Notes under the pieces: model-generated
Database searches by the model: none
The model's input: only the letters and a program-made list of their open reading frames with translations
What the model was told of the DNA's origin: nothing
DNA from: Aliikangiella coralliicola
GTDB taxonomy: Bacteria > Pseudomonadota > Gammaproteobacteria > Enterobacterales > Kangiellaceae
NCBI RefSeq assembly: GCF_007004725.1
Contig: NZ_ML660171.1
Span: forward strand, 186,001 to 250,000
Reading direction: 5' to 3'
Length of the DNA: 64,000 nucleotides
Shown: piece after piece, positions 44,056 through 58,489 of the stretch
Layout: every line of letters starts with the position of its first letter
How positions within the stretch are numbered: position 1 is the stretch's first letter
Program-made: the position numbers and the translations under genes

Positions 44056-45204
44056 TTGAATAATTTTCAGAGCAAATTACCTCACGTCGGCACGACTATT
44101 TTCACGGAAATGTCTGTGCTGGCAAATCAACACAACGCGATCAACTTGTCGCAGGGGTTTCCCGAGTTTGACACGCCAGACTTCTTAAAGTCTGCGATAA
44201 ATCAAGCAATAACCGACGGGAAAAATCAATATGCTCATTCAACAGGAATGCCAGAGCTATTGGAGGAAGTTGGATTATTAATCAAACGACAGTATGAGTT
44301 TGAATTAGATCCGCAAAAAACTGTGACGATTACTTCGGGCGCAACCGAAGCACTTTGGGTCGCTATCCAGACGATTATTCGTCAAGGTGATGAAGTGATT
44401 GTTTTTGACCCGGCGTATGATTCCTATGAACCCTCGGTAGAGTTGGCGGGCGGCAAGTGTGTGCATATTCCATTGCATGCACCTGATTATCGGGTTGATT
44501 GGGAACAGGTTAAATCGGTAATCAATTCGAATACCAGGGCGATTATTATTAATAGTCCTCATAACCCAACGGGCAGCTTGTTACGTGAAAATGATATGCA
44601 AATCTTGCAGCAATTAGTGCTCGATAATGAACTGTTTTTAATTAGTGATGAGGTGTACGAGTTTATTACTTTTGACGGCGAGAGACACGAAAGCGTATTA
44701 AGATATCCAGATTTATTTGAGCGAGCTTTTGTGGTGTCCAGTTTTGGTAAAACATTTCATTGTACTGGCTGGAAGTTGGGGTATTGTACTGCACCAGAGG
44801 CATTATCAGCTGAATTTCGAAAGATTCATCAGTATGTGACTTTTTGCAGTTTTACGCCGGCTCAAATCGGTATCGCGAGTATGCTTCAAAACCACACTGA
44901 ACATGTTAGTGAGTTGTCGAGTTTTTATCAGCAAAAGCGAGATTTTTTGATTAATTCCTTAGCCGATTCCAGGTTTAAGCTTTTAGATTCAAAAGGGACT
45001 TACTTTCTTCTGGTTGATTATAGTGATATTTCAGACTTGAATGACCGAGAATTTTGCCATTGGCTCACTAAAGAAATAGGAGTTGCTGCAATTCCTCTTA
45101 GCCCCTTTTATCAAAATCCTGAACAGGATAAAGTGATTCGGCTTTGTTTTGCGAAAAGCGAGAAAACTTTACTGGAGGCAGCTGAGAAATTATGTCAACT
45201 TTGA
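44056..45204 (+). CDS. ybdL: Methionine/2-oxo acid aminotransferase (YbdL-like)
   Basis: 382-residue class I/II PLP aminotransferase. The N-terminal SKLPHVGTTIFTEMSVLA and INLSQGFPEFDTP match YbdL/kynurenine-aminotransferase-III-like enzymes, which fixes the start: the frame begins at TTG 44056, since the first in-frame ATG (44110) would remove conserved residues. NSPHNPTGSLL and SSFGKTFHCTGWKLGY contain the PLP-binding Asn and Lys. With the overlapping omega-amidase (13 bases) this forms the glutamine transaminase-omega-amidase pair that salvages methionine keto acid and removes alpha-ketoglutaramate. The TTG start may limit translation. Confidence 0.88.
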   Translation: MNNFQSKLPHVGTTIFTEMSVLANQHNAINLSQGFPEFDTPDFLKSAINQAITDGKNQYAHSTGMPELLEEVGLLIKRQYEFELDPQKTVTITSGATEALWVAIQTIIRQGDEVIVFDPAYDSYEPSVELAGGKCVHIPLHAPDYRVDWEQVKSVINSNTRAIIINSPHNPTGSLLRENDMQILQQLVLDNELFLISDEVYEFITFDGERHESVLRYPDLFERAFVVSSFGKTFHCTGWKLGYCTAPEALSAEFRKIHQYVTFCSFTPAQIGIASMLQNHTEHVSELSSFYQQKRDFLINSLADSRFKLLDSKGTYFLLVDYSDISDLNDREFCHWLTKEIGVAAIPLSPFYQNPEQDKVIRLCFAKSEKTLLEAAEKLCQL

Positions 45205-45974
45205 AGGTAGCTGCGGTTCAGTATGATATTGACTGGCTGGATAAGGAATCCAATATTCAAAAACTGGATTCCCTATTAAAGAATTTGCCATCGGTTGATT
45301 TATTATTGCTACCGGAAACTTTCTCCACCGGGTTTTCAATCGACGTTCAAGGCTGTGAAGAGCCTTCGGGTGGCGGACAAGTTCTCGAATGGATGAAGGC
45401 GAAAGCATCCGAGTTGGGTGTAGTGATTGCTGGCTCTGTGTTAGTGAAAGTGGACGACAAAAAAGCGAATCGTTTCTATTGGGTCACACCTGAAGGTGAG
45501 GTTGACTATTACGACAAACGCCACCTGTTTCGATTAGGTAATGAGCAAGATTATGTTGTTCAGGGAGAACAGAGGAAAATTCTGGAAGTTAATGGGATCA
45601 GAATTTTGCCGCTAGTTTGTTATGATTTGCGGTTTCCGGTTTGGTCTCGAAATCAGAATGATTATGAGTTAATGGTCAATGTTGCCAACTGGCCGGCGGT
45701 GAGAAGGAATGTCTGGGATACTTTGTTAAAAGCTAGGGCAATGGAAAATCAGACCTATGTGATTGGCGTTAATCGTGTGGGAGAAGATGGTAAAGGAACA
45801 CCACATTCAGGTGGAACGGCTATTTATGATTTTTGTGGCGAGACCATTGAATCGGCAAGCGATGATAATGAGCAAGTCATTATTGCTGAGTTAGATTTTT
45901 CAAAGCAAAAAGCATTTAGAGATAAGTTTCCTGCTTATCTGGATGCTGATGAATTTGTTATAAAGATGGGTTAA
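45192..45974 (+). CDS. yafV: Omega-amidase (YafV/NIT2-like nitrilase family)
   Basis: 260-residue carbon-nitrogen hydrolase. The triad is complete: Glu42 in LLLPETFSTGF, Lys109 in YYDKRHLFR, Cys143 in PLVCYDLRFPVW. The TGF after the Glu and the PHSGGTAIYDFCG block match YafV, which hydrolyses alpha-ketoglutaramate and alpha-ketosuccinamate to the diacid plus ammonia. The gene overlaps the aminotransferase by 13 bases, so translation is coupled. A 6-bp hairpin (45975-45992) follows without T tract. Confidence 0.9.
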   Translation: MSTLKVAAVQYDIDWLDKESNIQKLDSLLKNLPSVDLLLLPETFSTGFSIDVQGCEEPSGGGQVLEWMKAKASELGVVIAGSVLVKVDDKKANRFYWVTPEGEVDYYDKRHLFRLGNEQDYVVQGEQRKILEVNGIRILPLVCYDLRFPVWSRNQNDYELMVNVANWPAVRRNVWDTLLKARAMENQTYVIGVNRVGEDGKGTPHSGGTAIYDFCGETIESASDDNEQVIIAELDFSKQKAFRDKFPAYLDADEFVIKMG

Positions 45975-46329
45975 GCCATTTGCTTGAATGGCGATAGTTG
46001 TCAAAAAAAAACTCTATAAGAGATATTTCTTGATCAATCCAATTCGTATTTAATTAGATAATCAAGTTCAAATATTGGCGTCATCATTCGGCATGGCGTT
46101 AATATTCAGAACAATTGACCAATTAATATTGAGTTACATCAATTTTTCAAAAAAACACCCTAGAATCATCGACATAGTAGAAAATCTCTACTAGTCTTAA
46201 TTATCAATGCCTTATCTGTTTATGCAGTTTGGAATGAGTTGTAGTTAAGCGGAAATAATAAAGGGCATGATAATCCTGCTTCAGCTTTCAGGATAAAAGA
46301 ATAAAAATCACTGAAGGACACATCTAAAG
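45975..46329. other. Intergenic region before the sigma/CHAT locus
   Basis: 355 bases, AT-rich. It holds a small hairpin just after yafV (GCCATT / AATGGC) and a perfect 7-bp inverted repeat at 46175-46193. The promoter of the whole 46.3-53.2 kb operon must lie here and, if the sigma factor is autoregulated, so must its own recognition sequence. No gene seen. Confidence 0.45.
46175..46193. promoter_or_regulatory. Inverted repeat upstream of the sigma factor gene
   Basis: TAGTAGAAAATCTCTACTA: 7-bp arms with loop AAATC, 137 bases before the sigma start codon. Candidate operator or leader structure; role unknown. Confidence 0.35.
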
Positions 46330-47124
46330 ATGGATACTAGTTTCAAAACAAATGATTTGTCGGAAAACCTAGTTACTCAAATTGCCAATGGGGTAAAAGC
46401 CGCAGAACAAAAGCTCGTCGATCAATATTGGCGCGGGCTCTACTTTATTCTCAATCGCAGAACTAACGATCCCGATCTTTCCGCCGACCTTGCGCAAGAC
46501 ACTTTTATCGTGGTGATAGAAAGTGCAAGAAAGGGCAAAATCGAAAACCCCGATGCTTTGTCTGGGTATATCAGGCAAGTCGGGGTTAATTTAATGATTG
46601 CTCACTACAGAAAAGAAAAACGGAGGGCAACTCAAACTGAGTCTGACATTCAGGTTTACGCACCTGATGATAGTCCGTCGCTTTATCGCTGTATTCACTC
46701 AGAGAAAATGTTGGAAAAGGTGCAGCAGCTAGTGGACGAAATGACGGTCGAAAGGGATCGCCTGTTGCTAAAGTCTTATTATCTGGAAGAAAAAGATAAA
46801 AAAGATATCTGTAGCGAATTAGACCTTACGCCCCAGCATTTTGATCGTGTGTTGTTTCGAGCAAGGACGCGATTAAAACAGTTGATTTTAATGAATATAA
46901 GTACTGGCAGTTCCAATCCTTCATCTCAGGAAATCCTAAGTATTGTGTTTGTCTTTATTGTTGTCTCGTCAGGCACTTATGAAGCACATTATGATAATTC
47001 TAAAAACTTTCAAACTCTGCTGAGAGATATTGGCGGAGCGCAGCACTTAATGGGTAAGAATGTAAACGGATTCACATTTAACTCAGATAGAAGTCAACAT
47101 CGAAAACCGATGTTAGTTGAGTGA
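46330..47124 (+). CDS. ECF-type RNA polymerase sigma factor with C-terminal extension
   Basis: 264 residues. Region sigma2 at about 25-100 (YFILNRRTNDPDLSADLAQDTFI, then GYIRQVGVNLMIAHYRKEKRR) and sigma4 at about 130-194 (DKKDICSELDLTPQHFDRVLFRARTRLKQ). No sigma3, so it is group IV/ECF. Beyond a normal ECF end it has about 70 extra residues with a hydrophobic stretch EILSIVFVFIVVSS (about 200-215), perhaps a membrane hairpin or anchor, then a polar tail. It heads a tight one-strand run: the downstream anti-sigma-like gene overlaps its stop (GTGA). It probably drives this locus in answer to an unknown signal. Confidence 0.86.
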   Translation: MDTSFKTNDLSENLVTQIANGVKAAEQKLVDQYWRGLYFILNRRTNDPDLSADLAQDTFIVVIESARKGKIENPDALSGYIRQVGVNLMIAHYRKEKRRATQTESDIQVYAPDDSPSLYRCIHSEKMLEKVQQLVDEMTVERDRLLLKSYYLEEKDKKDICSELDLTPQHFDRVLFRARTRLKQLILMNISTGSSNPSSQEILSIVFVFIVVSSGTYEAHYDNSKNFQTLLRDIGGAQHLMGKNVNGFTFNSDRSQHRKPMLVE

Positions 47125-47132
47125 GAAAAGAA

Positions 47133-47801
47133 ATGGATAAAACATATATCGACGAAAATGACATAGTAGCTAAATATTTACGCGGGCAATTGACGCCTGA
47201 GGAAACAATCGACTTCGAAACATACTTGATAGATAAGCCCGAGTTGGTTGAGTTGGTGGAGATGGATAGTGTTTTGTATAAAGCGCTACCAGAAGTTAAA
47301 ACTAAAAATAAAAAAAACCACATAGGTCGTGAGACTCGTTGGTTTGGTGTTTTTAGCCCCTTTTCTGGTTTAGCTGCAGTGTTGATTGTTTTTGTTGGGT
47401 TTCAATTATTTTTCTTTGATGTATTCGATTCAAATCGAGTAAGAAATATGGAGATATCTATCGGAGATATAGAATTTCCTGAATCTTCATACGAGTCTAC
47501 TAGAGGAGTAAGTGATTCAGGAATTATTACTTCTATCCCAATCTCTAATGACAAGAAATTTATTGCTCTAGCAGTTGAGACTGGTAGCTTTGAAATATCG
47601 AAATTTGATGTTGTAATTAGAGAGCGAGCGGAAATGAAAATTATTAAGAAGCGTTCTTCTGTGTCTCTGGGAAGAACAGGATATTTTTCAGTAATAATTC
47701 CAACTGTTCTCGTTGAGAATGCTGATTACGTTTTGGAAGTATATGAAGCTAACAGCTCGACGATTTTAGAAAGCTATACTTTTAGGTTTGAACGAGAATA
47801 A
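47133..47801 (+). CDS. Anti-sigma-factor-like membrane protein
   Basis: 222 residues from ATG 47133 (a GTG at 47121, overlapping the sigma stop, would add four). The N-terminal helical segment DIVAKYLRGQLTPEETIDFETYLIDKPEL looks like the sigma-binding domain of membrane anti-sigma factors without the zinc-finger Cys/His. One TM follows (SGLAAVLIVFVGFQLFFF, about 77-95), then about 125 periplasmic residues, strand-rich (SFEISKFDVVIRE, TGYFSVIIPTVLVENADYVLEVYE). Order and topology suit an anti-sigma that holds the sigma factor at the membrane. No homologue is recognised for the periplasmic part. Confidence 0.65.
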   Translation: MDKTYIDENDIVAKYLRGQLTPEETIDFETYLIDKPELVELVEMDSVLYKALPEVKTKNKKNHIGRETRWFGVFSPFSGLAAVLIVFVGFQLFFFDVFDSNRVRNMEISIGDIEFPESSYESTRGVSDSGIITSIPISNDKKFIALAVETGSFEISKFDVVIRERAEMKIIKKRSSVSLGRTGYFSVIIPTVLVENADYVLEVYEANSSTILESYTFRFERE

Positions 47802-47854
47802 TTGTAATCACTACTTAAACTTTGTTGATACCAAGAAAAACAGCAGGGGGTATC

Positions 47855-49459
47855 ATGAATAATCATGGTGACAAAATAAGCGGTAGTTTTTTTTCTATTT
47901 TTGAGCTGCCTGAAACTAGGTATAAGAAAGACATTCTTGAAGAGCTAGGCCAGGCGATGACAAATACAGTTGTACATGGAACTAGCAGATTATTTTCAGG
48001 GTATGCGTATTTCGGACAATTTATTGATCACGATATTACTCGGTTGAAATCCGGTAAAGAGCCTCCAGGTGAACGACCGAAAGAGCTTGATTCGTTAAAG
48101 CAGTTAAGGACTCCCGCATTGGACTTAGAGAGTCTTTATGGTAAAGGCTTTGACGACCCAGATATACCTGTTGATAAAACTAACGGAAAAATGTTTCTAG
48201 GTAAAACTGTTAACAAAGATGGAAGTAGCAGAAAGGACATTTTGAGGGAAGACGACTTGCCAAGAAATCTAAAGACAGGAAAAGCCCTGATAGGAGATGA
48301 TAGAAATGACGAGAATTTAATTATTGCTCAGTTGCATGTTCAATTTTTACGTTTGCACAATCTGTTTGTTGACAAGCTTAAAACTTCTAATAGCTCAATT
48401 CATGACGTTAAAGATAAAAAGCTTAGCACTATTGTTAAAGAGGTCGGTTGTAAAAGCCCTCGCCAACTATATTGTGAAGCACGACGACAGGTAATATTGC
48501 ATTATCAGTATTCTGTTTTATACGATTTTCTTCATAAGATTATTGATCCTCATGTATGGAACTATTTTTTTCAAGAAGATCTTGAACTTATGGGGGAAAA
48601 AAAGAAACGTAAAGACTCTCATATTTCTATGGCTATAGGTAAAAGGTTTTTATTAGATTCATTTTGTTTTGAAGAGCCTAGGATGCCAATTGAATTTTCG
48701 GCTGCTACCTTTAGATTTGGGCACTCAATGATAAGAGGTGAGTATAGGATCAATGATCAGGTATCTCTAACTATTGCGGGACTATTTCGAATGACTGGTA
48801 ATGGCGGCTTTTTAGGTATTCGAACTCTTCCGGAAACACATGTCATAGACTGGAGATACTTTTTTGACTTAGCTGGTAGTGGGAATGATAGAACTAGGTT
48901 TAGAGAAAATTTTGCGCGGCGTATTGATACGGATGTTCAACTTCTGCTTGGACCAATTAATAATTCTAGCAACAACGTCGCCGTACGGAATCTATTGAGA
49001 GGAAATGAACTCAAACTGCCAAATGGCAGGGCTGTTGCAAACCACATTCTCTCAAAGTTGAGAAAAAAGCAAGGTGAGGAAGAGCAACGTTTATACGAAT
49101 ACATAAATGATAGTCTTTCAAAAATTGATTTTGAGCCGAGTTTACCTGAATTAAAAGAGTGCGCGCCGGAGAAACGCCGACGGCTATATAAATGTCTTAA
49201 GGAAATAGGTAACAAGCCTCCTCTATGGTACTTTGTACTCTGTGAGGCTGCCTCGATTCATAAAGGTGAGCGTTTGGGACCATTTGCTAGTTTAATCATC
49301 GCGGAAACTTTTTGTACTTTAATCAATCAAAGCGAACCATCAATTTATCACAGTGATTGGTACTTGTTCGATGTTATTGGTAAGCCCAGAAATGTAAAGC
49401 GAAATACTACTAATGCGATAACTGAGTTACTTAAATATGCTAAGTCATACAATGGTTAG
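47855..49459 (+). CDS. Animal-type haem peroxidase family protein
   Basis: 534 residues of the peroxidase-cyclooxygenase (animal haem peroxidase) superfamily. ATG 47855 is chosen for AGGGGG just upstream; TTG 47822 is unlikely. Key residues are in order: YFGQFIDHDITR with Asp58 (haem link), distal His59 and Ca-ligand Asp60; GDDRNDENLIIAQLHVQFLRLHN with the catalytic Arg and, three residues on, the haem-linking Glu; FRFGHSMIRGEYRI with the proximal His. It should therefore bind haem and use H2O2, perhaps to make hypohalous acids or oxidise an organic substrate. No signal peptide is visible, unusual for the superfamily. The gene is rich in AGA/AGG arginine codons, unlike most neighbours. Confidence 0.87.
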   Translation: MNNHGDKISGSFFSIFELPETRYKKDILEELGQAMTNTVVHGTSRLFSGYAYFGQFIDHDITRLKSGKEPPGERPKELDSLKQLRTPALDLESLYGKGFDDPDIPVDKTNGKMFLGKTVNKDGSSRKDILREDDLPRNLKTGKALIGDDRNDENLIIAQLHVQFLRLHNLFVDKLKTSNSSIHDVKDKKLSTIVKEVGCKSPRQLYCEARRQVILHYQYSVLYDFLHKIIDPHVWNYFFQEDLELMGEKKKRKDSHISMAIGKRFLLDSFCFEEPRMPIEFSAATFRFGHSMIRGEYRINDQVSLTIAGLFRMTGNGGFLGIRTLPETHVIDWRYFFDLAGSGNDRTRFRENFARRIDTDVQLLLGPINNSSNNVAVRNLLRGNELKLPNGRAVANHILSKLRKKQGEEEQRLYEYINDSLSKIDFEPSLPELKECAPEKRRRLYKCLKEIGNKPPLWYFVLCEAASIHKGERLGPFASLIIAETFCTLINQSEPSIYHSDWYLFDVIGKPRNVKRNTTNAITELLKYAKSYNG

Positions 49460-49504
49460 TTTAATATGAAAAACTATTGATGGCTTTGATAAGGAGACGA
49501 TGAA

Positions 49505-49912
49505 ATGTCAGATCAGAAAGTTTTGGACACTTTTTTAGGTTGCTGGCAAGTGTTTGATGTAAAAAATCCAGATCACCCTGTTAGAAAAGAGTGGTATCCA
49601 AACCCAGATGTAATGTTCGAAGTAAATCAAATTGAGGATAAACTCGCAGTTAAAATTAGTGTGCTGCCAACTGGGGGAACCTATGATGGCGAAAGGTATC
49701 TAGAAGAAGTCGAGTTTATTTTGGAAGGCAATGAAATAATTGCTCCAAGGAAAGAGGTTGGTAATGAACTAGAGTTTCAAGAAAAGGCTAGTATGGATGA
49801 TGAAGGTTATATGGTTCACTGGTTAGATTGGTTCTCAAATATTAATGGAGAGATAACTAAAATTTCTACCGGGTCATACAAATGTAAACAGATCAGCTGT
49901 AATGATAAATAG
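49505..49912 (+). CDS. Uncharacterised 135-residue protein of the CHAT locus
   Basis: 135 residues, no signal peptide or TM, acidic, and rich in aromatic residues and strands (GCWQVFDVKNPD, VMFEVNQIEDKLAVKISVLP, GYMVHWLDWFSN). A lipocalin-like small beta-barrel would fit (a GxW near residue 12-14 is lipocalin-like), but this is a guess. The start ATG 49505 has AAGGAG 8 bases upstream. It ends TAG over the GTG start of the CHAT protease (TAGTG), i.e. fully coupled to it. Its position suggests a partner, substrate or inhibitor of the protease or the peroxidase. No family recognised. Confidence 0.72.
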   Translation: MSDQKVLDTFLGCWQVFDVKNPDHPVRKEWYPNPDVMFEVNQIEDKLAVKISVLPTGGTYDGERYLEEVEFILEGNEIIAPRKEVGNELEFQEKASMDDEGYMVHWLDWFSNINGEITKISTGSYKCKQISCNDK

Positions 49913-52900
49913 TGGGGTACTCCCTCGCCTTGAAAAAGATTAGCTTTTCGTTATTATTACTTTTTTGCTTTAGCGTCTTTGCTGTAAGTGGAGAGGCTTG
50001 CCCTCATGCTCCTAGGGGTAAGCCACTTCGCGAGGTAAAACTAGAGACGCCTAATGAATCTAACTTATTGGTTTCAATTATACCGCGAAATACTAAATTA
50101 GTTACTCTGCTTATACATAGCAAAGGGAAAAACTGGTATCGGAATCCATTAGGAAATAACGTCAAACAAGTTATTTTTATCGATAAAAATAAAATTCAAT
50201 CTGAAGCGACCTTGTGCATCTATTCTCAATACAGTAACTCGGGTAAAAGCATTGAAGGCATTTCTTTTGAGAAAATTAAAGAAATTAGAGGAAGTGTACG
50301 AGAGTCATTACTTCTTTTAAATGAGGCTAGTTCGTTATGGCATAAAAATGACAAACATTCAAAGTTGAACTCCATTAGTGCCTATGCAACGCTGTTCGAA
50401 AACAACACAAGAGAATTTGACTTGTCACTGCTAGCTTTTCTTAACCTTTTGGAAGCTAATTTCAATCTGTACAATTATGATGAAGTATTTCGCCTCTATA
50501 AAGTATTACCCACGAGGCTGAAGCTCAATGAATATTTTTATTATCATGTTTTACGGATAAAAGCAAAAGCGCTTGTTAGACAACATAAATTACATGAAGC
50601 ACTTCCTGTCGCAGAAAACGCGTTATTAACACTTGAGCTGTATGTAAAAAAACATAAATATTCTTTCCGTGCTGACGAAGCCGAAATTCGAAACTTAATT
50701 GGAGAAATACTTCTTTCACAATCGAGAGGCTTAGTTGGAAATACTGCTTATAAGAAAATGCATCATGGAAAACTTTTTTTAGATAAAGCTTATATGTTTG
50801 CTATAGGAAACAGTCAGTTGTTAGCACACATACATAATAATAAAGGACTTTATCATATTTTAAAAAGTCGAATTGTTACAAGGGAAGTTAGACTTGAAGA
50901 GTTGTTGATTTCGATTGGCGAGCACGAAAGAGCAAAAGAGTACGCTGTATCTGCAAACGATAACTTTTCTTTACCTCTAATTGAAAACAATCTAGGGAGT
51001 TTATATTTAAAAACTAGGCAATTAGGCAAGTCCTTGAGAAGCTATCAGAGTGCGTTAAGCCGAATCGATAATGAAAAAGAATCTGAATTATTAGCATTGT
51101 TATATAAAAACTTGGGTAAGGTTTACCAAAGCTTAGGCGATTACTCTAAATCAGAAGCTTTTTTATCAAAGGCAGTTTCATTATCAGAAAAAGCGTCCAC
51201 TATTGAGGTTGCAAATATCAAGTGTATTCAAGGAACAACTTTAAGGCTTATGGGAGAGGTTTTGAAGGCTCGGCGACTACATGAGTCTTGTTTGGAACTA
51301 TTGAAAGTCGAGTCGGAAGAAAGTGTTGAGAATGATATTGTTAATGCAAGGCTTCAGCTGGCAGAAGACCACTTAATAAATGGTAATGGCTCAGAGTCTA
51401 AGGCACAAGTTATGTTAGCTATGAATGAGCTAAACATGATTACTAGTTTCGATTTGAAAGCTCAACTTTTAATTCAGTTTTCTCGAATGTTAGATGCGGA
51501 TGGAAAACAAAGTCAAGCAATAAATGCCATACACGAAGCTATCGAGAGCTCGAAGAAGGCACAATTACCAGCTTCCTACATTGACAGTTTAGAATTCGCT
51601 ATTAACTATTTTAAATCAATTAATAAGTTTCAAGAACTGAATAACTATGGAGAGCTAGCGTTAAAGGAAATAGAGTACTTACATGAACAGTTAGATTCAG
51701 AGAGATTAGGGCCTGCTTGGAGTAATAAAACTAATGCAATTTATATGACGCTTGCAGATGTAAGATTAAGTCAATACAGAGATAATGAAAGTGAAGAGGG
51801 ATTAGCTTTAATATTTAACTTAATTGAAAGATCAAAAGCAATTAGCCTTCGATTAAGTATAGCTTCTGATAAGGCAAACTCTAGCTTAAAAGAAATGAAT
51901 GATAAAGCTGACTATATAAGTGAGATCGCAAAGGAAGAAGCTGTAAGCAAGACTAAAGAGCAGCGTAAAAAATTAATGGTTGAACGTTTTCATGAACAGG
52001 AAATAAATACTTATGGGAGAATGAGTGAAAGAACGAAGAGTAAGTTGCCACCTCTGATTGAGTTGGTTAAAGCTAGAGAGAAGCTTTCCGAAAAACAAAT
52101 GGTTATCTACTATTTGCTACTATCTGAAAATATTATTGCTTTTACTTTAACTCGTAATGATGCAAATGTGCAGTTGATAGGACACGCTGACGAAATTTTC
52201 GAAACTCATTCTTCCACTAGAGATATATTGACAAGTAAAAACTTGATAAAAACTTATCAGCATTTAGATAAAATTTCGTCCAAACTGATTAAGCCTATAA
52301 ATATTGGGAAACATATATCTGAGTTATTATTTGTTCCCCATCTATCTTTGCACTCGATTCCTTTTTCAGCATTGTCAAATTCAAAAGTTGCAGGGAAATA
52401 CGAACCATTAATAGAAAATTATACTGTAAAAGTCATTCCTTCGCTAAATACATACCTGATGAAAAAAAATAAAATAGATTACGAGTTTTCAAAATACTTA
52501 GCAGTCATTGCAAATCCAGTCTTCAGTAAGAGTAATAAATTAGCTAAAGACGAGAGCAATGATAAATCAGAAACTTTTCGAAGTTGGTCGCGAGAACTAA
52601 AGCCTTTGCCTTATACTCATATCGAATCGGAGAAGCTAAAAGAGCTTTTAAATGATAATGCTATTGTCTTCGGTCAAGAAAAAGCCACTAGGCAAAATTT
52701 ATATAGTGATGTAGCCCGACGAGCGAAGATTTTGCATATTTCTACACACGGTTATTTTAGAGAGAGCAACTCGGATAATGTTGGATTAGCACTTTCTATC
52801 GTTGACGAATTTGGGAATTCTATTCCGGGATTTGTGACTGTCACTGATTTGTTTAATAATGAGTTCCTTAACGAACTTGTCGTCATTAATGGTTGTGATA

Positions 52901-53196
52901 CTGCAATGGGGGAACCTCAAGCGGGCGAAGGAATTACCGGGTTAACAAGAGGATTTCTTGCACAAGGGGCTAAACATGTGATCTCTACTTTGTGGCCAGT
53001 TACGGATAAAGCTTCCGCTAAGTTTATGGAGTATTTTTATGGTCATTTGATTAAGGAAGGGGATATTTCAAAAGCTCTTCGATTAGCGCAAAGCCAGTTA
53101 AGAAAGAACAGAAAATATAGAGATCCTTTTTACTGGGCGCCGTACATCCTGACCACAGTAAGTCCCGATGAAAACATAATCTTAAGGCGTAAATAA
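49912..53196 (+). CDS. Exported TPR-CHAT protease-like protein
   Basis: 1094 residues with a Sec signal peptide (SFSLLLLFCFSVFAVSGEAC), a small strand-rich N-domain (about 30-115), tandem TPR-like helices (about 125-640, e.g. LYKNLGKVYQSLGDYSKSEAFLSKAV), a charged coiled segment, and a C-terminal CHAT domain (about 705-1090). The caspase-like dyad is intact: His946 in HISTHGYF and Cys995 in INGCDTAMGE, with GITGLTRGFLAQGAKHVIST and DPFYWAPYIL as in CHAT proteins. CHAT peptidases usually act on a neighbouring protein after activation of the TPR sensor (as in Craspase TPR-CHAT). Here the protein appears periplasmic. GTG start overlaps the previous stop. Confidence 0.88.
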   Translation: MGYSLALKKISFSLLLLFCFSVFAVSGEACPHAPRGKPLREVKLETPNESNLLVSIIPRNTKLVTLLIHSKGKNWYRNPLGNNVKQVIFIDKNKIQSEATLCIYSQYSNSGKSIEGISFEKIKEIRGSVRESLLLLNEASSLWHKNDKHSKLNSISAYATLFENNTREFDLSLLAFLNLLEANFNLYNYDEVFRLYKVLPTRLKLNEYFYYHVLRIKAKALVRQHKLHEALPVAENALLTLELYVKKHKYSFRADEAEIRNLIGEILLSQSRGLVGNTAYKKMHHGKLFLDKAYMFAIGNSQLLAHIHNNKGLYHILKSRIVTREVRLEELLISIGEHERAKEYAVSANDNFSLPLIENNLGSLYLKTRQLGKSLRSYQSALSRIDNEKESELLALLYKNLGKVYQSLGDYSKSEAFLSKAVSLSEKASTIEVANIKCIQGTTLRLMGEVLKARRLHESCLELLKVESEESVENDIVNARLQLAEDHLINGNGSESKAQVMLAMNELNMITSFDLKAQLLIQFSRMLDADGKQSQAINAIHEAIESSKKAQLPASYIDSLEFAINYFKSINKFQELNNYGELALKEIEYLHEQLDSERLGPAWSNKTNAIYMTLADVRLSQYRDNESEEGLALIFNLIERSKAISLRLSIASDKANSSLKEMNDKADYISEIAKEEAVSKTKEQRKKLMVERFHEQEINTYGRMSERTKSKLPPLIELVKAREKLSEKQMVIYYLLLSENIIAFTLTRNDANVQLIGHADEIFETHSSTRDILTSKNLIKTYQHLDKISSKLIKPINIGKHISELLFVPHLSLHSIPFSALSNSKVAGKYEPLIENYTVKVIPSLNTYLMKKNKIDYEFSKYLAVIANPVFSKSNKLAKDESNDKSETFRSWSRELKPLPYTHIESEKLKELLNDNAIVFGQEKATRQNLYSDVARRAKILHISTHGYFRESNSDNVGLALSIVDEFGNSIPGFVTVTDLFNNEFLNELVVINGCDTAMGEPQAGEGITGLTRGFLAQGAKHVISTLWPVTDKASAKFMEYFYGHLIKEGDISKALRLAQSQLRKNRKYRDPFYWAPYILTTVSPDENIILRRK

Positions 53197-53231
53197 TAAA
53201 TAGAGTTTAAACAATAGACCGCTAATTTCCA

Positions 53232-53253
53232 TTGACCAATCGGTCGACCAATC
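53232..53253. promoter_or_regulatory. TetR operator-like site upstream of its gene
   Basis: TTGACCAATCGGTCGACCAA, an imperfect dyad sharing 16 of 22 positions with the perfect palindrome at 53928-53945 (extended by 4 bases). It lies 39 bases before ATG 53292 and overlaps a TTG that would otherwise be an alternative start, arguing against that start. Suggests autoregulation. Confidence 0.55.
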
Positions 53254-53291
53254 CTACAATTAAAAAACTAAACTCTTACTCCCCAAAATCT

Positions 53292-53882
53292 ATGACCCAA
53301 ACCCGCCAACAAGCCGCTGAACAAACCCGTCTGAAAATCATCCAGGCAGCATTTGAAATCGTCGGCGAATCAGGCTATGAAGACCTTACGACCAACTCGC
53401 TAATTGCCAAGGCCGGTATCGCCAAGGGCACACTCTATCACCATTTCAATAATCTGGACGAAGTCGTTTATGCCATGATCAAATCTCTGGTTGAGCAGTC
53501 GTTAGATGGAGTTCCGGTAGAGAAATATGACAGTTTAGCTGAATATTTAGAGGCGATGGGAGAGTACCTGATGAGTGATTGTATCAACGATCCCAAGGTC
53601 TTAAACACGATTTACGGTTTTATTCCAAAAGGAATGAAAGACCCCAAATTCAAGAAATTGGCCGTTGAACTGTTAGAAGGGGCATGTGATCGCATTACAC
53701 CCGCTTTTCAGCGGTTTTATGGTGGAAAATTAACCAATGAAAAGATTGATCATGCCATAAGAATGGTCGATATGTTTGTCAGCGGTTTTTGTATTCACTA
53801 TGTCATTTTTGAGGATAAAAATAAGTATCAAAAATTGTGGTCTGAATTTAGCGAAATGCTCGTTCGGTTTCTTGAAAAATAG
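53292..53882 (+). CDS. TetR family repressor of the adjacent RND operon
   Basis: 196 residues from ATG 53292 (TTG 53232 would add 20 residues but overlaps an operator-like site). The N-terminal HTH (TRLKIIQAAFEIVGESGYEDLTTNSLIAKAG-type helix, then IAKGTLYHHFNNLDEVV) is typical. The C-terminal 130 residues form a ligand-binding helical domain (GAYxMSD... FVSGFCIHYVIF). It lies 318 bases upstream of the adaptor gene in the same direction, with a perfect palindrome in between, so it likely represses the RND genes and itself until an inducer binds. Ligand unknown. Confidence 0.88.
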   Translation: MTQTRQQAAEQTRLKIIQAAFEIVGESGYEDLTTNSLIAKAGIAKGTLYHHFNNLDEVVYAMIKSLVEQSLDGVPVEKYDSLAEYLEAMGEYLMSDCINDPKVLNTIYGFIPKGMKDPKFKKLAVELLEGACDRITPAFQRFYGGKLTNEKIDHAIRMVDMFVSGFCIHYVIFEDKNKYQKLWSEFSEMLVRFLEK

Positions 53883-53927
53883 ATAAAAATTCAATATAAA
53901 TGATAATTATTTCCATTTGAGTTTTGT

Positions 53928-53945
53928 TGACCGACCGGTCGGTCA
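53928..53945. promoter_or_regulatory. Perfect 18-bp TetR-type operator
   Basis: TGACCGACCGGTCGGTCA is its own reverse complement, a form typical of TetR family operators (half-site GACCGACC). It lies between the TetR gene and the adaptor gene it probably controls, 256 bases before the adaptor start. Confidence 0.82.
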
Positions 53946-53998
53946 GTGATAATATCCACTCTCGAAATGGTTCACCCCGGTTCGAAAAGACGAACAGA

Positions 53999-54063
53999 AA
54001 TGAGAAAAACGCTTTTTCATTTGCAACATGGCAAAAATCTGTTTCGCCACTCTTTTTCTCATT
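53999..54063 (+). promoter_or_regulatory. Alternative-pairing leader before the adaptor gene
   Basis: Arm AATGAGAAAAA (53999-54009) is perfectly complementary to TTTTTCTCATT (54053-54063), and its 3' half also to the near TTTTTC (54013-54018) with a 3-base loop. The two pairings exclude each other. Attenuation-like control is an inference from base pairing alone. Confidence 0.35.
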
Positions 54064-54200
54064 CGCTTTTTCGACAACCTGACAATAACTCTATTTTTAC
54101 GCGGTAAAAGGAGTGAAAAGAAGTCACTTACAGCGAGAAAATAGAATTAACTAAAGCGATTTCAAACCAGTTTGAAAATATAAAACTCAAAAATAGCACT

Positions 54201-55268
54201 ATGATGAAATTCACAAAATTTTTTTTGATAAAACTCTTGGGCACTCTCTTTCTTTTGTCAGCATTGATTACAACCAGATCGGTGAGCGCATTTGAAGAAA
54301 GCCAAAATACAAAGTTGACAACTAGTGTTACGACACAAGCATTCGAATCCTTACGCTTTAATCCTTCTAGAAATGCACCTGCTAAAGTTGAGTCGCTTAA
54401 TCGAAGCCGAATACCTGCAGAAGTTGGAGCAGTAGTTTCCAGGCTAACCGCGAAAGTAGGAAAAATAGTCGAGGCGGGCGAGTTACTTGCTGAGCTTGAT
54501 TGTCGTGATTTCGAGTTAAACTTTCAGGTTCAGTCTGCGCAGTTAGAGCAATTAAAAATACAGCAAGAATTTGAACAAAGAGAAGTCAAACGAGGCGAAA
54601 AACTATTAAAGCGAAAAAATCTTGGCGAAGCTGAACTTGATCGAAGAAAGACTATTTTACAAACAACTCAAGCACAAGCCCTTGCTCAACAGGCATCAGT
54701 TAACCGCGCCTTACTAGAAAAGTCTCGCTGTAAAATTTTGGCACCATTCGCCGGAGTAGTGATTTCTCGACTTGCTAGTGAAGGAGAGATGATAGAAAAG
54801 GGAGCGCCTGTCATTGAATTAGTTCAAACGGATGAATTGGAAGTCTCTGCCAACATTGCACTATCAGATGAAGTTTCCTTTGTCGGTGCCAATCAATATT
54901 ACCTTGAAGCCAACTCTCAGAACTACCCGGTTAAAGTGCGTCAGTTGACCGCGGCAGTTGTTGATAGTGCACGAAGCCGAGAGGCCCGGTTGGTTTTTCT
55001 GGATAAAAGTACTTTGCCGGGAGTCATCGGCCGACTAGTGTGGCGTTCTCCCACTCCTCATTTGCCTGCACACTTACTACAAAAAAGAGGCGAACAGTTT
55101 GGCGTATTTATTAGTAACGACTCTAATGCACACTTCATTGCCATTCCCGAGGCACAAGAAGGCAGGCCGATTCCGATACTTGATGAATCACAGTGGTCGG
55201 GCGCTCAACTTATCATTGATGGCCGCCATGGTTTACAAGACAAACAGAAAATTTCTATAAAAAAGTAA
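54201..55268 (+). CDS. RND efflux periplasmic adaptor (operon 2)
   Basis: 355 residues, HlyD/AcrA-type. A signal peptide or anchor (FFLIKLLGTLFLLSALITT) has no lipobox Cys, unlike the first operon's adaptor. Lipoyl halves: RIPAEVGAVVSRLTAKVGKIVEAGELLAELDCRDF and CKILAPFAGVVISRLASEGEMIEKG flank a helical hairpin (about 110-170). The following domain is beta-barrel-like. Cooperates with the RND pump at 55340, 71 bases downstream. No outer membrane channel gene is near. Length is at the short end of the family. Confidence 0.9.
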   Translation: MMKFTKFFLIKLLGTLFLLSALITTRSVSAFEESQNTKLTTSVTTQAFESLRFNPSRNAPAKVESLNRSRIPAEVGAVVSRLTAKVGKIVEAGELLAELDCRDFELNFQVQSAQLEQLKIQQEFEQREVKRGEKLLKRKNLGEAELDRRKTILQTTQAQALAQQASVNRALLEKSRCKILAPFAGVVISRLASEGEMIEKGAPVIELVQTDELEVSANIALSDEVSFVGANQYYLEANSQNYPVKVRQLTAAVVDSARSREARLVFLDKSTLPGVIGRLVWRSPTPHLPAHLLQKRGEQFGVFISNDSNAHFIAIPEAQEGRPIPILDESQWSGAQLIIDGRHGLQDKQKISIKK

Positions 55269-55339
55269 TAGGCTAAAAAAGCGCTAATTAGAGTTTTAGA
55301 CAAGAGAAAATATTTGTAGTTTGCAGGAGCGAATTATTT

Positions 55340-58300
55340 ATGTGGCTACGCCAGTTAATCCAAAATCATGTGTTAACCAATTTGTTGTTTGGCCTCATTT
55401 TATTGATGGGAACGATCACTTATTTTAGTTTGCCCCGAGAACAAGACCCAACGGTTAATTTTAACTGGGTGCAGATTACGACTTTTTTTCAGGGCGCTTC
55501 AGCGAAAGACGTTGAGCGGAAGGTCACTGATATTATCGAAGAGTCGATTGAAAAAATTCAAGATATTAAATTTGTTTCCAGTACCAGTCGCGAAAGTATC
55601 TCCAGTATCCTGGTACGTTTTAACGATATTGGTGATGACGCTTTCGATAAAAGACTCGCTGATTTACGGCGTGAAATTAATAATATTGAAGATCAATTAC
55701 CCGAAGAGTCAGAGCGCCCGGATATTTTTGAAGTAACTACGGCTAATGCCTATCCGACAGCAACGGTAGTTGTGAGTGGGCCGTCTGATGATGAAAATTT
55801 GCGTCGACATGCACGCATTCTGGAAAAAGATCTTGGCCGTATCAAAGGAGTCGACAGAGTTCAGCCTACCGGGTTAAAAGATCCTGAAATACAAGTTCAA
55901 TTTGATATCGAAAAAATCCAGTTGTTAAATATTTCGCCGGTGACCATCGCTGATTCAATTCGTAGTTTTTATCAAGATACTTCTGCGGGCTCTGCTCGAA
56001 TTGCTAACGACCAATGGTTAGTTCGAATTGAGGGAACGACCACCGAACCTGACAAGTTAGCGCAGATCCCAATTCTTTCCCGAGAAGGTAATAGACTCAT
56101 TAATAATACGGAGATACGTCTGGGTGATGTCGCACGAGTCGTGAGAGAGCGCTCGAAAGATGAACGTCTTGTAAGGTTAAATGGAAAACCGGCAGTTCTT
56201 TTTGCGGTGATGAAACAGGAAAATTCTAACACGCTTGAATTAGTAAAACGCATTAGTGAGTTCGTTGACCAACGCAACACCAATAGCGAAAAACTGGGCG
56301 TTGAATTTTCATTGGTTGATGACCAAACGCTGATCACACGTAATGCGCTAGATATCATGCAAACTAACGCGCTCTATGGATTAATTCTGGTTTTGTTTGT
56401 GACCTGGATTTTCCTGGGATCCAAAATTAGTTTACTGGTTACAATCGGCATCCCATTTACTTTAGCGGGAACTTTTATTGCGCTAAAAATATTTGGTCAA
56501 ACTTTAAATACCTCTGTGTTGCTCGCGATTGTGATTGCGCTCGGAATGTTGGTTGACGATGCGGTCGTGGTGGTCGAGTCTATCTATCACAAGTTACGTC
56601 GCGGCGCTAATGGAATTGAAGCGGCATGGAGTGGGCTAACTGAAGTTATCGGTCCGGTCACTGCTTCAGTGTTTACAACTATTGCCGCGTTTTTACCCTT
56701 GATGTTAATGCCTGGAATTTTAGGTAAATTTATGATGGTTATTCCATTGGTGGTTACCTTGGCATTGCTGATTAGTTTGATAGAAGCTTATTGGATGTTG
56801 CCGGGCCATGTAATGGCCGCGAAGGTCAGCTTTGATAACCCGTCGAAGATTGATGCGTATCGACGGCGATTTATTCATTGGATAAAGATTAAGTATGGAT
56901 TGGCACTGATTAAAGTCATGCGACATCCGAGGAAAACGCTCGCAGGTTTATTTGGTGTGTTAATTTTTGCTATGGGTTCTTTGGCGATCGGATTAGTCAG
57001 AGTCGATTTTTTCGCTGCAGACACCATTCGGTTATTTTATGTCAATGTCGAAATGCCAACGAGTAGTTCACTCGACGAGACTATGGAAAAAATATTACTG
57101 GTGGAAAAGCAAGCGAGAGAAAAATTAGACGAACAAGAAACACGATCGGTTGTGAGTTATGCTGGGCAAATGTTTACCGAAACCGCGCCAATGTACGCGG
57201 AAAATATCGGCCAGGTTTTGGTGAGTTTAAAACCTCGTAAAGGAGAGATGCGCACCGTCGAACAAATTATTGAAGAGATGCGGGGAGCAGTTACGTCTGT
57301 GGTGGGGCCGGTGAATGTTTCATTTACCAAGTTAGCAGGTGGACCGCCGACTAGTAAACCAATTAGTGTTAAAGTTCGCGGTGATGATTATGCAGAGTTA
57401 AGAGCGGCTACCGATACGCTAGGTGATTTTCTTAAGGCCGATGAAGAAAAGCGATTTATTGACGTCACCGATGATGACAGTAAAGGTCGACAAGGACTCA
57501 CTTTAAAATTGAATTACGATGCGATTAATCGTTTGGGCGTTTTGCCAAATACTGTTTATCGGATTATTAAGTCTCTGGTTGACGGCGAAATAGTCAGTTA
57601 TGTGCAGCACGAAGGTGATCGAATTGCGCTGAGGTTGAAGTCAACCCAGGCTGTCACAAACCGGTTTACAGATATTGATGCGCTACTCACTTTATCGGTG
57701 CCAACGCCCGGTGGCGAAAATGTGCCGTTACGTTCGCTGGTTGAAATTAAAGTCGAACAGGTTAAAGGTAACTTGCGTCATTATAATTTTCGCAGAACCA
57801 TCACACTCGAATCTGATATCAACAAACAATTGACCGACACGGTTGCAGCAAACAATTTATTAAAAGCGCACTGGGAAAAAATAGACGGAGATTACCCCAA
57901 CGTGTCACTCGACTTTTCAGGAGAGCTAGATGACATTCAGGAAAGTATGGATGCAATGGGCGTATTATTTTTATTTGGAATTGGTTTGATGTACTTGATC
58001 CTGAGCACGCAATTTCAGAGCTACTTTCAACCTTTAATGATGTTGTTTACAGTACCTATGGCATTTACAGGTGTTGTACTTGGCCTGATTGTTTCTGGTA
58101 ATCCACTCAGTTTATTTACATTGTATGGCGTCGTTGCGTTAGCCGGCATCGCGGTTAACGCGGCGATTGTTTTGATTTCGAGAGCCAATGCAAACCTGGA
58201 TAAGGGAATGAGTTTAATACATTCGACCTTTTACGCGGCAAGAAGAAGAGTTCTACCGATTATTATTACGACTTTAACAACTGTGGCCGGATTATTTTCA

Positions 58301-58489
58301 TTGGCTGTCGGGTTGGGAGGACATTCTTTAATCTGGGCGCCGGTGGCCACTGCAATTGTATGGGGATTAATTTTTTCGTCCATGTTGACTTTATTTGTTG
58401 TCCCGGTGCTTTACGAAACTTTTATGCAGCGTTCAAAACGTCGACAGAAATATCGTACTCAAGCGGTGGCGAGCGGTCATGCAAAGTAA
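55340..58489 (+). CDS. RND efflux permease 3
   Basis: 1049 residues, AcrB-like RND. N-terminal LFGLILLMGTITYFSLPREQDPTVNFNWVQI, the first periplasmic block FFQGASAKDVERKVTDIIEE, and TM4 ALGMLVDDAVVVVESI with both aspartates (Asp406, Asp407), unlike the two pumps at 8-15 kb. TM10 region ALAGIAVNAAIVLISRA. The sub-branch with LPREQDP is common in TetR-regulated pumps of proteobacteria (VexD/MexF-distant). Preceded by AGGAG 13 bases upstream. Likely repressed by the TetR protein; substrate unknown. Confidence 0.93.
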   Translation: MWLRQLIQNHVLTNLLFGLILLMGTITYFSLPREQDPTVNFNWVQITTFFQGASAKDVERKVTDIIEESIEKIQDIKFVSSTSRESISSILVRFNDIGDDAFDKRLADLRREINNIEDQLPEESERPDIFEVTTANAYPTATVVVSGPSDDENLRRHARILEKDLGRIKGVDRVQPTGLKDPEIQVQFDIEKIQLLNISPVTIADSIRSFYQDTSAGSARIANDQWLVRIEGTTTEPDKLAQIPILSREGNRLINNTEIRLGDVARVVRERSKDERLVRLNGKPAVLFAVMKQENSNTLELVKRISEFVDQRNTNSEKLGVEFSLVDDQTLITRNALDIMQTNALYGLILVLFVTWIFLGSKISLLVTIGIPFTLAGTFIALKIFGQTLNTSVLLAIVIALGMLVDDAVVVVESIYHKLRRGANGIEAAWSGLTEVIGPVTASVFTTIAAFLPLMLMPGILGKFMMVIPLVVTLALLISLIEAYWMLPGHVMAAKVSFDNPSKIDAYRRRFIHWIKIKYGLALIKVMRHPRKTLAGLFGVLIFAMGSLAIGLVRVDFFAADTIRLFYVNVEMPTSSSLDETMEKILLVEKQAREKLDEQETRSVVSYAGQMFTETAPMYAENIGQVLVSLKPRKGEMRTVEQIIEEMRGAVTSVVGPVNVSFTKLAGGPPTSKPISVKVRGDDYAELRAATDTLGDFLKADEEKRFIDVTDDDSKGRQGLTLKLNYDAINRLGVLPNTVYRIIKSLVDGEIVSYVQHEGDRIALRLKSTQAVTNRFTDIDALLTLSVPTPGGENVPLRSLVEIKVEQVKGNLRHYNFRRTITLESDINKQLTDTVAANNLLKAHWEKIDGDYPNVSLDFSGELDDIQESMDAMGVLFLFGIGLMYLILSTQFQSYFQPLMMLFTVPMAFTGVVLGLIVSGNPLSLFTLYGVVALAGIAVNAAIVLISRANANLDKGMSLIHSTFYAARRRVLPIIITTLTTVAGLFSLAVGLGGHSLIWAPVATAIVWGLIFSSMLTLFVVPVLYETFMQRSKRRQKYRTQAVASGHAK

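Follow-up and report, generated by a model that had tools for sequence, protein, structure and literature searches.

A five-gene locus of Aliikangiella coralliicola joins an ECF sigma factor and a predicted membrane anti-sigma factor, with a candidate cleavage site, to a haem peroxidase and a TPR-CHAT protein

Why would a sigma factor and its putative membrane-bound inhibitor be encoded together with a haem peroxidase and a predicted protease? This question is raised by a 64,000-nucleotide stretch of the Aliikangiella coralliicola genome (contig NZ_ML660171.1, positions 186,001 to 250,000; hereafter the window), in which five genes of the plus strand, spanning 46330-53196, encode in this order a sigma factor of the extracytoplasmic function (ECF) type, an anti-sigma factor, an animal-type haem peroxidase, a small protein and a TPR-CHAT protein. 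As the best model we lean towards one in which the CHAT protein cuts the anti-sigma factor at a site ending in Arg128 (R128), frees the sigma factor and thereby raises the amount of a cytoplasmic peroxidase. The open reading frame (ORF) calls agreed with the original prediction, which had been made from the sequence alone, in the five same-strand genes and in their overlaps and gaps, and Pfam and other searches bore out its domain reading (ECF sigma, membrane anti-sigma-like protein, haem peroxidase, orphan and TPR-CHAT protein).

The five-gene arrangement is no chance event, since an identical order recurs in 13 genomes of four families (f1, f7, f16 and f169; genomes G000, G011, G240, G466, G472, G474, G537, G565, G584, G594, G622, G674 and G692); the neighbourhood check that had been proposed, on whether the genes travel together, thus came out in favour of the original prediction. 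One copy, in G472 (L073:993-5289), is decayed, with broken sigma and peroxidase frames and a shortened CHAT gene, and in G466 the peroxidase is split over two frames. Searches of 99 relatives and 40 family genomes recovered the complete set in G011, which belongs to another genus. For the wider searches (class, family and order) we used a CHAT query and a sigma profile (A1), and the neighbourhoods were then read. At a threshold of E<=1e-25, the sigma search was positive in 14 of 394 genomes of the order: nine carry all five genes, four (G002, G666, G078 and G097) a sigma/anti-sigma/CHAT triad without an adjacent peroxidase, and one (G054) a sigma gene without CHAT; G097 has a second, weaker sigma match, also without CHAT. 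Positive genomes numbered 6 of 398 in the phylum sample and, at a looser 1e-15, 9 of 369 in the class sample, where the weakest matches are ordinary ECF background; G462 gave four sigma matches with no adjoining CHAT or anti-sigma gene recognised. Triads with no peroxidase alongside amount to eight loci in total, five of them CHAT-first (CHAT, sigma, anti-sigma, then an ORF of 152-204 residues; G352, G447, G476, G002 and G666), two sigma-first (sigma, anti-sigma, CHAT, then an ORF of 134-148 residues; G097 and G078, the latter with CHAT in two frames) and one with a divergent CHAT (G264). A contig scan of named genomes yielded one CHAT, in Prochlorococcus, with no sigma gene recognised alongside. 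Finding the peroxidase and the CHAT protein regularly apart had been named as grounds for refuting the original prediction, and here the result was divided: within the order, all six strong peroxidase matches lie inside the module, but the eight triads do without a peroxidase, six of the 11 genomes matched by the window CHAT in the class have no adjoining sigma gene of this group (some of them on short contigs; the other five have one), and in five plasmid neighbourhoods a related peroxidase stands without annotated CHAT or sigma genes within 4 kb.

Two side observations concern the triads. In G002, a 231-residue protein with a HEIGHALG motif (L023:7999-8694) adjoins the triad and is a possible alternative cargo, with a weak matrixin likeness (Pfam 7.6e-4, below cut-off). 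Three CHAT-first triads (L039:12303-12764, L042:11891-12349 and L071:8012-8473) include a protein of 152-153 residues that is rich in Cys over one stretch and in Gly at its C-terminus and does not resemble the small protein of the window.

The evidence that carries our model lies mainly in the anti-sigma factor. Sequence and structure prediction give it an N-terminal helical domain, one transmembrane helix at about residues 80-104, a juxtamembrane linker and a C-terminal beta-sandwich; it has no Pfam match, and its weak matches to NCBIfam anti-sigma models are far below cut-off. By its helices, its single predicted transmembrane segment, its putatively periplasmic domain and its place next to the sigma gene, it qualifies as a probable membrane anti-sigma factor. 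In an alignment of 21 loci, with 13-29% identity to the window protein, only four residues are invariant: Y19, F32 and E33, which lie before the membrane helix, and R128, which lies beyond it. R128 is found 16-29 residues past the most hydrophobic 19-residue stretch, is followed by Gly or Ser in 21 of 21 sequences and falls, in a single-sequence model, within an unstructured, low-confidence linker (pLDDT<50 at 100-135) between the transmembrane helix and the beta-sandwich. Among the 13 five-gene modules, 11 have Glu or Asp at P4, as do both sigma/anti-sigma/CHAT triads. The motif [E/D]xxR[G/S], whose background frequency is 0.095 per 100 residues in background ORFs, occurs exactly once, at the place of R128, in 10 of the 12 five-gene anti-sigma factors scanned. 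Elsewhere in the module it is carried by 0/12 small proteins, 1/12 sigma factors, 4/12 peroxidases and 8/12 CHAT proteins, but no alignment column has it in more than two of the 11 peroxidases or two of the 12 CHAT proteins; judging from these alignments, no module protein besides the anti-sigma factor conserves the site. CHAT and separase domains are related. The site of the five-gene anti-sigma factors, a motif in a predicted substrate, is like the separase consensus, given as a minimal ExxR with the cut after Arg (PMC6858450) and, in yeasts, as (D/E)xxR (PMC4626109).

The putative protease combines a Pfam CHAT domain (PF12770, 2e-54) with TPR repeats. As in the original prediction, its dyad is His946 and Cys995, kept in 19/19 sequences, and the acid of an LWxVxD element is kept in 18/19; domain and dyad together qualify it as a predicted peptidase. 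A hydrophobic stretch lies within the first 70 residues in 19/19 (in G692 it begins no earlier than residue 45 of the called frame), in line with the signal peptide noted earlier, and from this signal-like start the protein looks exported. The motif [E/D]xxR[G/S] is present at residue 890 of the window CHAT (P0005; ETFRS) and at residue 835 of the L022 CHAT (DHFRS), in one common column just before a conserved PLP stretch; the other 10 aligned CHAT proteins lack it there, and the column is a possible candidate for self-cleavage.

Given the invariant Arg site and a CHAT protein that appears to be exported, site-1 cleavage of the anti-sigma factor by CHAT is the economical reading, and the earlier proposal that CHAT cuts the anti-sigma factor and frees the sigma factor is now supported by an independent, invariant candidate site. 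Our model is that of a mobile, operon-like signalling module. The computations show its conserved gene order, the conserved active site, the signal-like start of CHAT and the invariant site; membrane topology, cleavage, sigma release, autoregulation and the peroxidase output are what we infer. The ECF sigma factor would be held at the inner membrane by the single-pass anti-sigma factor and, in most copies, seemingly also by a membrane-seeking tail of its own. The exported TPR-CHAT protein would be triggered in the periplasm by a signal, perhaps via its TPR part, and would make the first (site-1) cut after the juxtamembrane Arg, in separase-like fashion, at [E/D]xxR|[G/S] in most five-gene modules; host intramembrane and cytoplasmic proteases would then remove the rest of the anti-sigma factor. 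The freed sigma factor might transcribe its own operon and perhaps other genes, and so raise a cytoplasmic peroxidase of the myeloperoxidase (MPO) type together with its beta-barrel partner. Pairwise distances of the anti-sigma factor and CHAT correlate (r 0.49-0.53), with 1 of 2000 permutations as high (for r 0.49).

Several observations weigh against this model. P4 is Glu or Asp in none of the five CHAT-first triads and not in G264, where the site is just R|[G/S], and two of the 13 five-gene modules (G692 and G565) lack [E/D]xxR[G/S]; R128 could be a structural rather than a cleavage residue. A control found R[G/S] after the transmembrane segment in one of seven ORFs in or beside other ECF loci, a loose comparison in that some of the seven are probably no anti-sigma factors. 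The distances of CHAT follow those of the peroxidase (r 0.81) more closely than those of the anti-sigma factor (r 0.49), those of the sigma core show no clear correlation with any partner (r 0.02-0.34), and whole-length sigma and peroxidase distances give r -0.34. This pattern is unlike what a simple CHAT/anti-sigma partnership predicts, and the stronger CHAT-peroxidase correlation can reflect shared descent but leaves room for a CHAT-peroxidase link in spite of the compartments predicted for the two. Moreover, in Csx30, the substrate of another TPR-CHAT protein, the cut lies at about residues 427-429, with no ExxR named in the accessible text of that report (PMC10028731); hence CHAT proteases need not share the specificity of separase. 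A two-word promoter search upstream of 12 modules gave a best pair in 3/12, the same as in shuffles, and scans for sigma70-type promoters and terminators did no better than in shuffled sequence. Since no promoter motif was found, the damage sensing and the peroxidase-based response of the original prediction are still something that we infer.

The sigma factor of the window is recognised as ECF-type, by its regions and short length, from Sigma70_r2 (PF04542, 1.5e-9) and TIGR02937 (6.6e-18, above cut-off), with a weak region 4 (0.012, below cut-off). The extra C-terminal segment described earlier proved real (residues ~189-264, with a hydrophobic stretch at 202-218). Of the 12 five-gene modules whose sigma gene is unbroken, nine have such an extension with a hydrophobic segment and three (G240, G466 and G474) do not; it is present in 0/7 tested triads without peroxidase. 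Its best 17-residue hydropathy mean is 1.6-2.1 in eight and 0.86 in one. A (V/L/M)R(D/E)x(4-7)H motif occurs in 8/9 extensions and in the last 75 residues of 2/228 background ORFs, although this motif, like the tail motifs of the small protein, was defined after viewing the sequences and the counts are no independent tests. The extension suggests a putative membrane-seeking tail.

The peroxidase matches An_peroxidase (PF03098, 1e-17), with FGQFIDHD as the GQxxDHD element and DRNDEN as the RxxE element of the window copy. Across 11 module peroxidases, Gln55, the distal His59, Arg150 and His290 are invariant, and Asn at the N379 column, the partner of the proximal His290, is present in 10. The ester Asp is kept in two and the ester Glu in six, so that the claim of intact key residues stands for the window copy but not for the module at large, where 9/11 copies are without the ester Asp and 5/11 without the ester Glu. 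With its catalytic core kept and the covalent haem links often lost, the enzyme may produce a milder oxidant than MPO. No hydrophobic N-terminal export signal was seen in 12 copies. Of 237 order genomes searched with a profile of the 11 sequences, seven were matched, and six of the matches are module copies (E<1e-130); the seventh (G590:C1:456816-457217, 1.2e-9) is a haem-peroxidase-like stretch of 107 positions inside a frame of 3919 residues. Within their own genome, the CHAT protein and the peroxidase have one match each. Viral contigs gave no peroxidase match; 33 plasmid records carry a relative, and of seven plasmid neighbourhoods viewed, the five annotated ones showed, in an incomplete gene table, no CHAT or sigma gene within 4 kb. 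In a tree of 18 sequences, whose root is not fixed and in which two long branches (G240 and G474) meet, a branch with 100/99 support separates the 11 module peroxidases from seven plasmid-borne relatives. The idea that an unrelated lineage had replaced the peroxidase, raised by the far better conservation of the sigma factor, was set aside on account of this branch. On a Rhizobium sophoriradicis plasmid (L117), genes near that of a related peroxidase encode TPR proteins, a C25 peptidase and a DyP-type peroxidase, and peroxidase and protease may be paired there in parallel to the module; C25 peptidases belong to clan CD. On a Spirosoma plasmid (L114), the gene of a related peroxidase precedes those of a DUF1508 protein and a ThiF adenylyltransferase.

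The small protein is the least conserved, fast-evolving part of the module; the anti-sigma factor, CHAT and the small protein all diverge very fast (mean identity 18-23%). It has no Pfam or PDB sequence match and no match on plasmids. Its model is all-beta at low confidence (pLDDT 52), with lipocalin and avidin barrels as the best, weak fold matches (E 0.01 and worse). The family is weak: in leave-one-out searches 10/12 members ranked first of 633 and 9/12 reached E<0.01, the window protein ranking 11 (E 5.4); the window and G011 proteins match each other at 6.4e-9. Cleavage of this 135-residue protein by CHAT, an option in the original prediction, became less likely with [E/D]xxR[G/S] in 0/12 and with its low conservation, a result that excludes cleavage at such a motif only.

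It would nevertheless be conceivable, although we consider it unlikely, that the main target of CHAT is the peroxidase or the small protein (for maturation, release or removal of an inhibitor), and that the sigma/anti-sigma pair answers to a DegS-type host protease and sets only the amount of operon product. The three genes adjoin in five-gene modules, and peroxidase, small-protein and CHAT distances correlate at r 0.65-0.86, with at most 1 of 2000 permutations as high; such a correlation can, however, simply mirror shared descent. CHAT has a signal-like start and the other two have none, which therefore points to different compartments; neither of them conserves [E/D]xxR[G/S], and CHAT stays with sigma and anti-sigma in the eight loci without an adjacent peroxidase. 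A little less likely still, in our view, is an oxidative-stress detoxification operon under an ordinary envelope-stress ECF switch, in which the peroxidase would consume peroxide or oxidise a metabolite and R128 would be a structural linker residue. Enzymes of the superfamily are peroxidases, and short bacterial peroxicins have been proposed to act against reactive oxygen (PMC4420034); in Shewanella, a glutathione peroxidase, which is a different enzyme, is reported to depend on an ECF sigma factor (PMC4336711). The sporadic distribution (all five genes in 9/394 genomes of the order), the insertion at this place, the fast divergence and the triads with other or no cargo are, however, unlike a housekeeping operon. 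That several independent recruitments brought together a peroxidase functionally unlinked to the CHAT/sigma triad seems to us highly improbable: the eight triads and the plasmid peroxidases without an annotated triad nearby would fit it, but the order is fixed across four families, the 11 tested module peroxidases stand apart from seven others, and the strong order-wide matches (6/6) are in the module.

A bolder version of our own model, which we regard as rather doubtful, is a bacterial separase-like pathway in which exported CHAT cuts the membrane anti-sigma factor at ExxR|G/S and the sigma factor arms a cytoplasmic myeloperoxidase-type enzyme, the whole being a horizontally spread conflict or suicide module with several interchangeable cargos, of which the oxidant maker would be one. 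Its defence context was scanned in the nearest sizeable flanking ORFs, 10 window proteins and 20 from ten other five-gene modules. PADLOC matched one of the 30, weakly (2.3e-9, over 72 residues), and none of the ten window proteins at 1e-5; the other 29 match no defence model. This makes the conflict reading somewhat less likely and that of stress detoxification somewhat more so. The five module proteins gave BovA (3.8e-9) and otherwise weak matches, the BovA model (PDLC03832) being matched partially by the CHAT region in 2/12 CHAT proteins, the window's included. Hence no convincing PADLOC system match to a known anti-phage system was found for module or flanks, and a conflict role, for which the best PADLOC match of CHAT is a partial BovA, lacks contextual support.

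Five known systems stand nearest to the module. In Craspase, the TPR-CHAT protein Csx29 cleaves Csx30, an inhibitor of an ECF sigma factor, and proteolysis relieves the inhibition (PMC10028731). The module shares with this side arm of type III-E systems (Csx29, Csx30 and CASP-sigma) a TPR-CHAT protein and a putatively inhibited ECF sigma factor, but it differs in the signal-like start of CHAT, in a putative single-pass membrane anti-sigma factor as inhibitor and in the peroxidase cargo. CRISPR models gave no convincing match among 15 window proteins (the five and ten flanking ones), one Cas2b match to the sigma factor reaching 0.026; Cas7-11/gRAMP, an array and Csx30 were not found, the array being sought by a repeat scan of 45000-54600 rather than by a CRISPR tool. 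The sequence link to Craspase is weak (8d9h_E, CHAT domain protein, E 0.85). With RpoE/RseA/DegS (PMC8103513), the module would share a membrane anti-sigma factor with a cytoplasmic sigma-binding part, a periplasmic part and a proposed periplasmic site-1 cut; unlike there, the proposed site-1 protease is an operon-encoded, separase-like cysteine protease and not a host serine protease. As the searches turned up no CRISPR parts and CHAT takes the place of DegS as proposed protease, we file the module under neither: it would work like the Craspase sigma arm and also like RseA/DegS, as protease-controlled anti-sigma signalling.

Separase itself (clan CD) is likewise a caspase-like cysteine protease with an ExxR consensus and a cut after Arg (PMC6858450, PMC4626109), whereas the module CHAT is bacterial, apparently exported and of predicted specificity. 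Conflict loci of the TRADD-N/EACC2 type also have an ECF sigma factor with a TPR protein and a caspase-like protease as neighbours (PMC8195603); Pfam finds no such adaptor domain in the five module proteins, and the main text of that paper does not contain the whole words peroxidase and CHAT. The bacterial peroxicin-like haem peroxidases (PMC4420034) share PF03098, GQxxDHD, RxxE and a proximal His with Asn with the window copy; the module lineage differs in standing apart from the seven plasmid-borne relatives and in the ester Asp missing from 9/11. The original prediction knew of no described system with this combination, and we too found none in the open-licence literature, exclusive of supplements and of the main ECF reclassification paper. 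If true, our model would offer an example, independent of CRISPR, of ECF sigma activation by a TPR-CHAT protease, a protease acting outside the membrane with a sharply predicted cleavage residue, and a regulatory context for a group of bacterial myeloperoxidase relatives.

Table 1. Coordinates, in the window, of the module genes and of the candidate cleavage site.
Feature	Position	Strand	Basis or remark
ECF-type sigma factor, 264 aa	46330..47124	+	ORF, Pfam, NCBIfam
Predicted membrane anti-sigma factor, 226 aa	47121..47801	+	GTGA overlap with sigma gene; sequence and structure prediction
Codons of candidate cleavage site Arg128-Gly129 (E125-S-T-R128|G129), putative periplasmic linker of the anti-sigma factor	47502..47507	+	21-locus alignment
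Animal-type (peroxidase-cyclooxygenase superfamily) haem peroxidase, 534 aa	47855..49459	+	Gap of 53 after anti-sigma gene; alternative TTG start possible at 47822
Small protein, 135 aa	49505..49912	+	Gap of 45 after peroxidase gene; predicted all-beta
TPR-CHAT predicted cysteine protease, 1094 aa	49912..53196	+	1-base overlap with small-protein gene

The surroundings of the module point to an insertion. The left flank gene (45192) is present in five of six other same-genus genomes; in four of these five it is followed, directly or after one gene, by matches to 58555 or 59679 onward, and in the fifth (G006) different genes come next, shortly before the contig ends. We therefore conclude that the window holds an insert of 12.5 kb that comprises the module together with a TetR/RND pump set, the TetR regulator and the RND efflux pair lying at 53232-58489; at 1e-10, none of the six other same-genus genomes matches the TetR gene. 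The guanine-plus-cytosine content falls from 41-45% in the nearest flanks to 35-37% in the module, which is weak evidence of insertion because other stretches of the window dip too (35% at 16-18 kb and 38% at 4-6 kb). At the module edges, a repeat scan of 45000-54600 gave nothing but short imperfect repeats, and no tRNA was found in the window. The sporadic occurrence and the differing neighbours are consistent with horizontal spread. Further upstream, an open frame of 2852 residues occupies 26431-34989 of the window.

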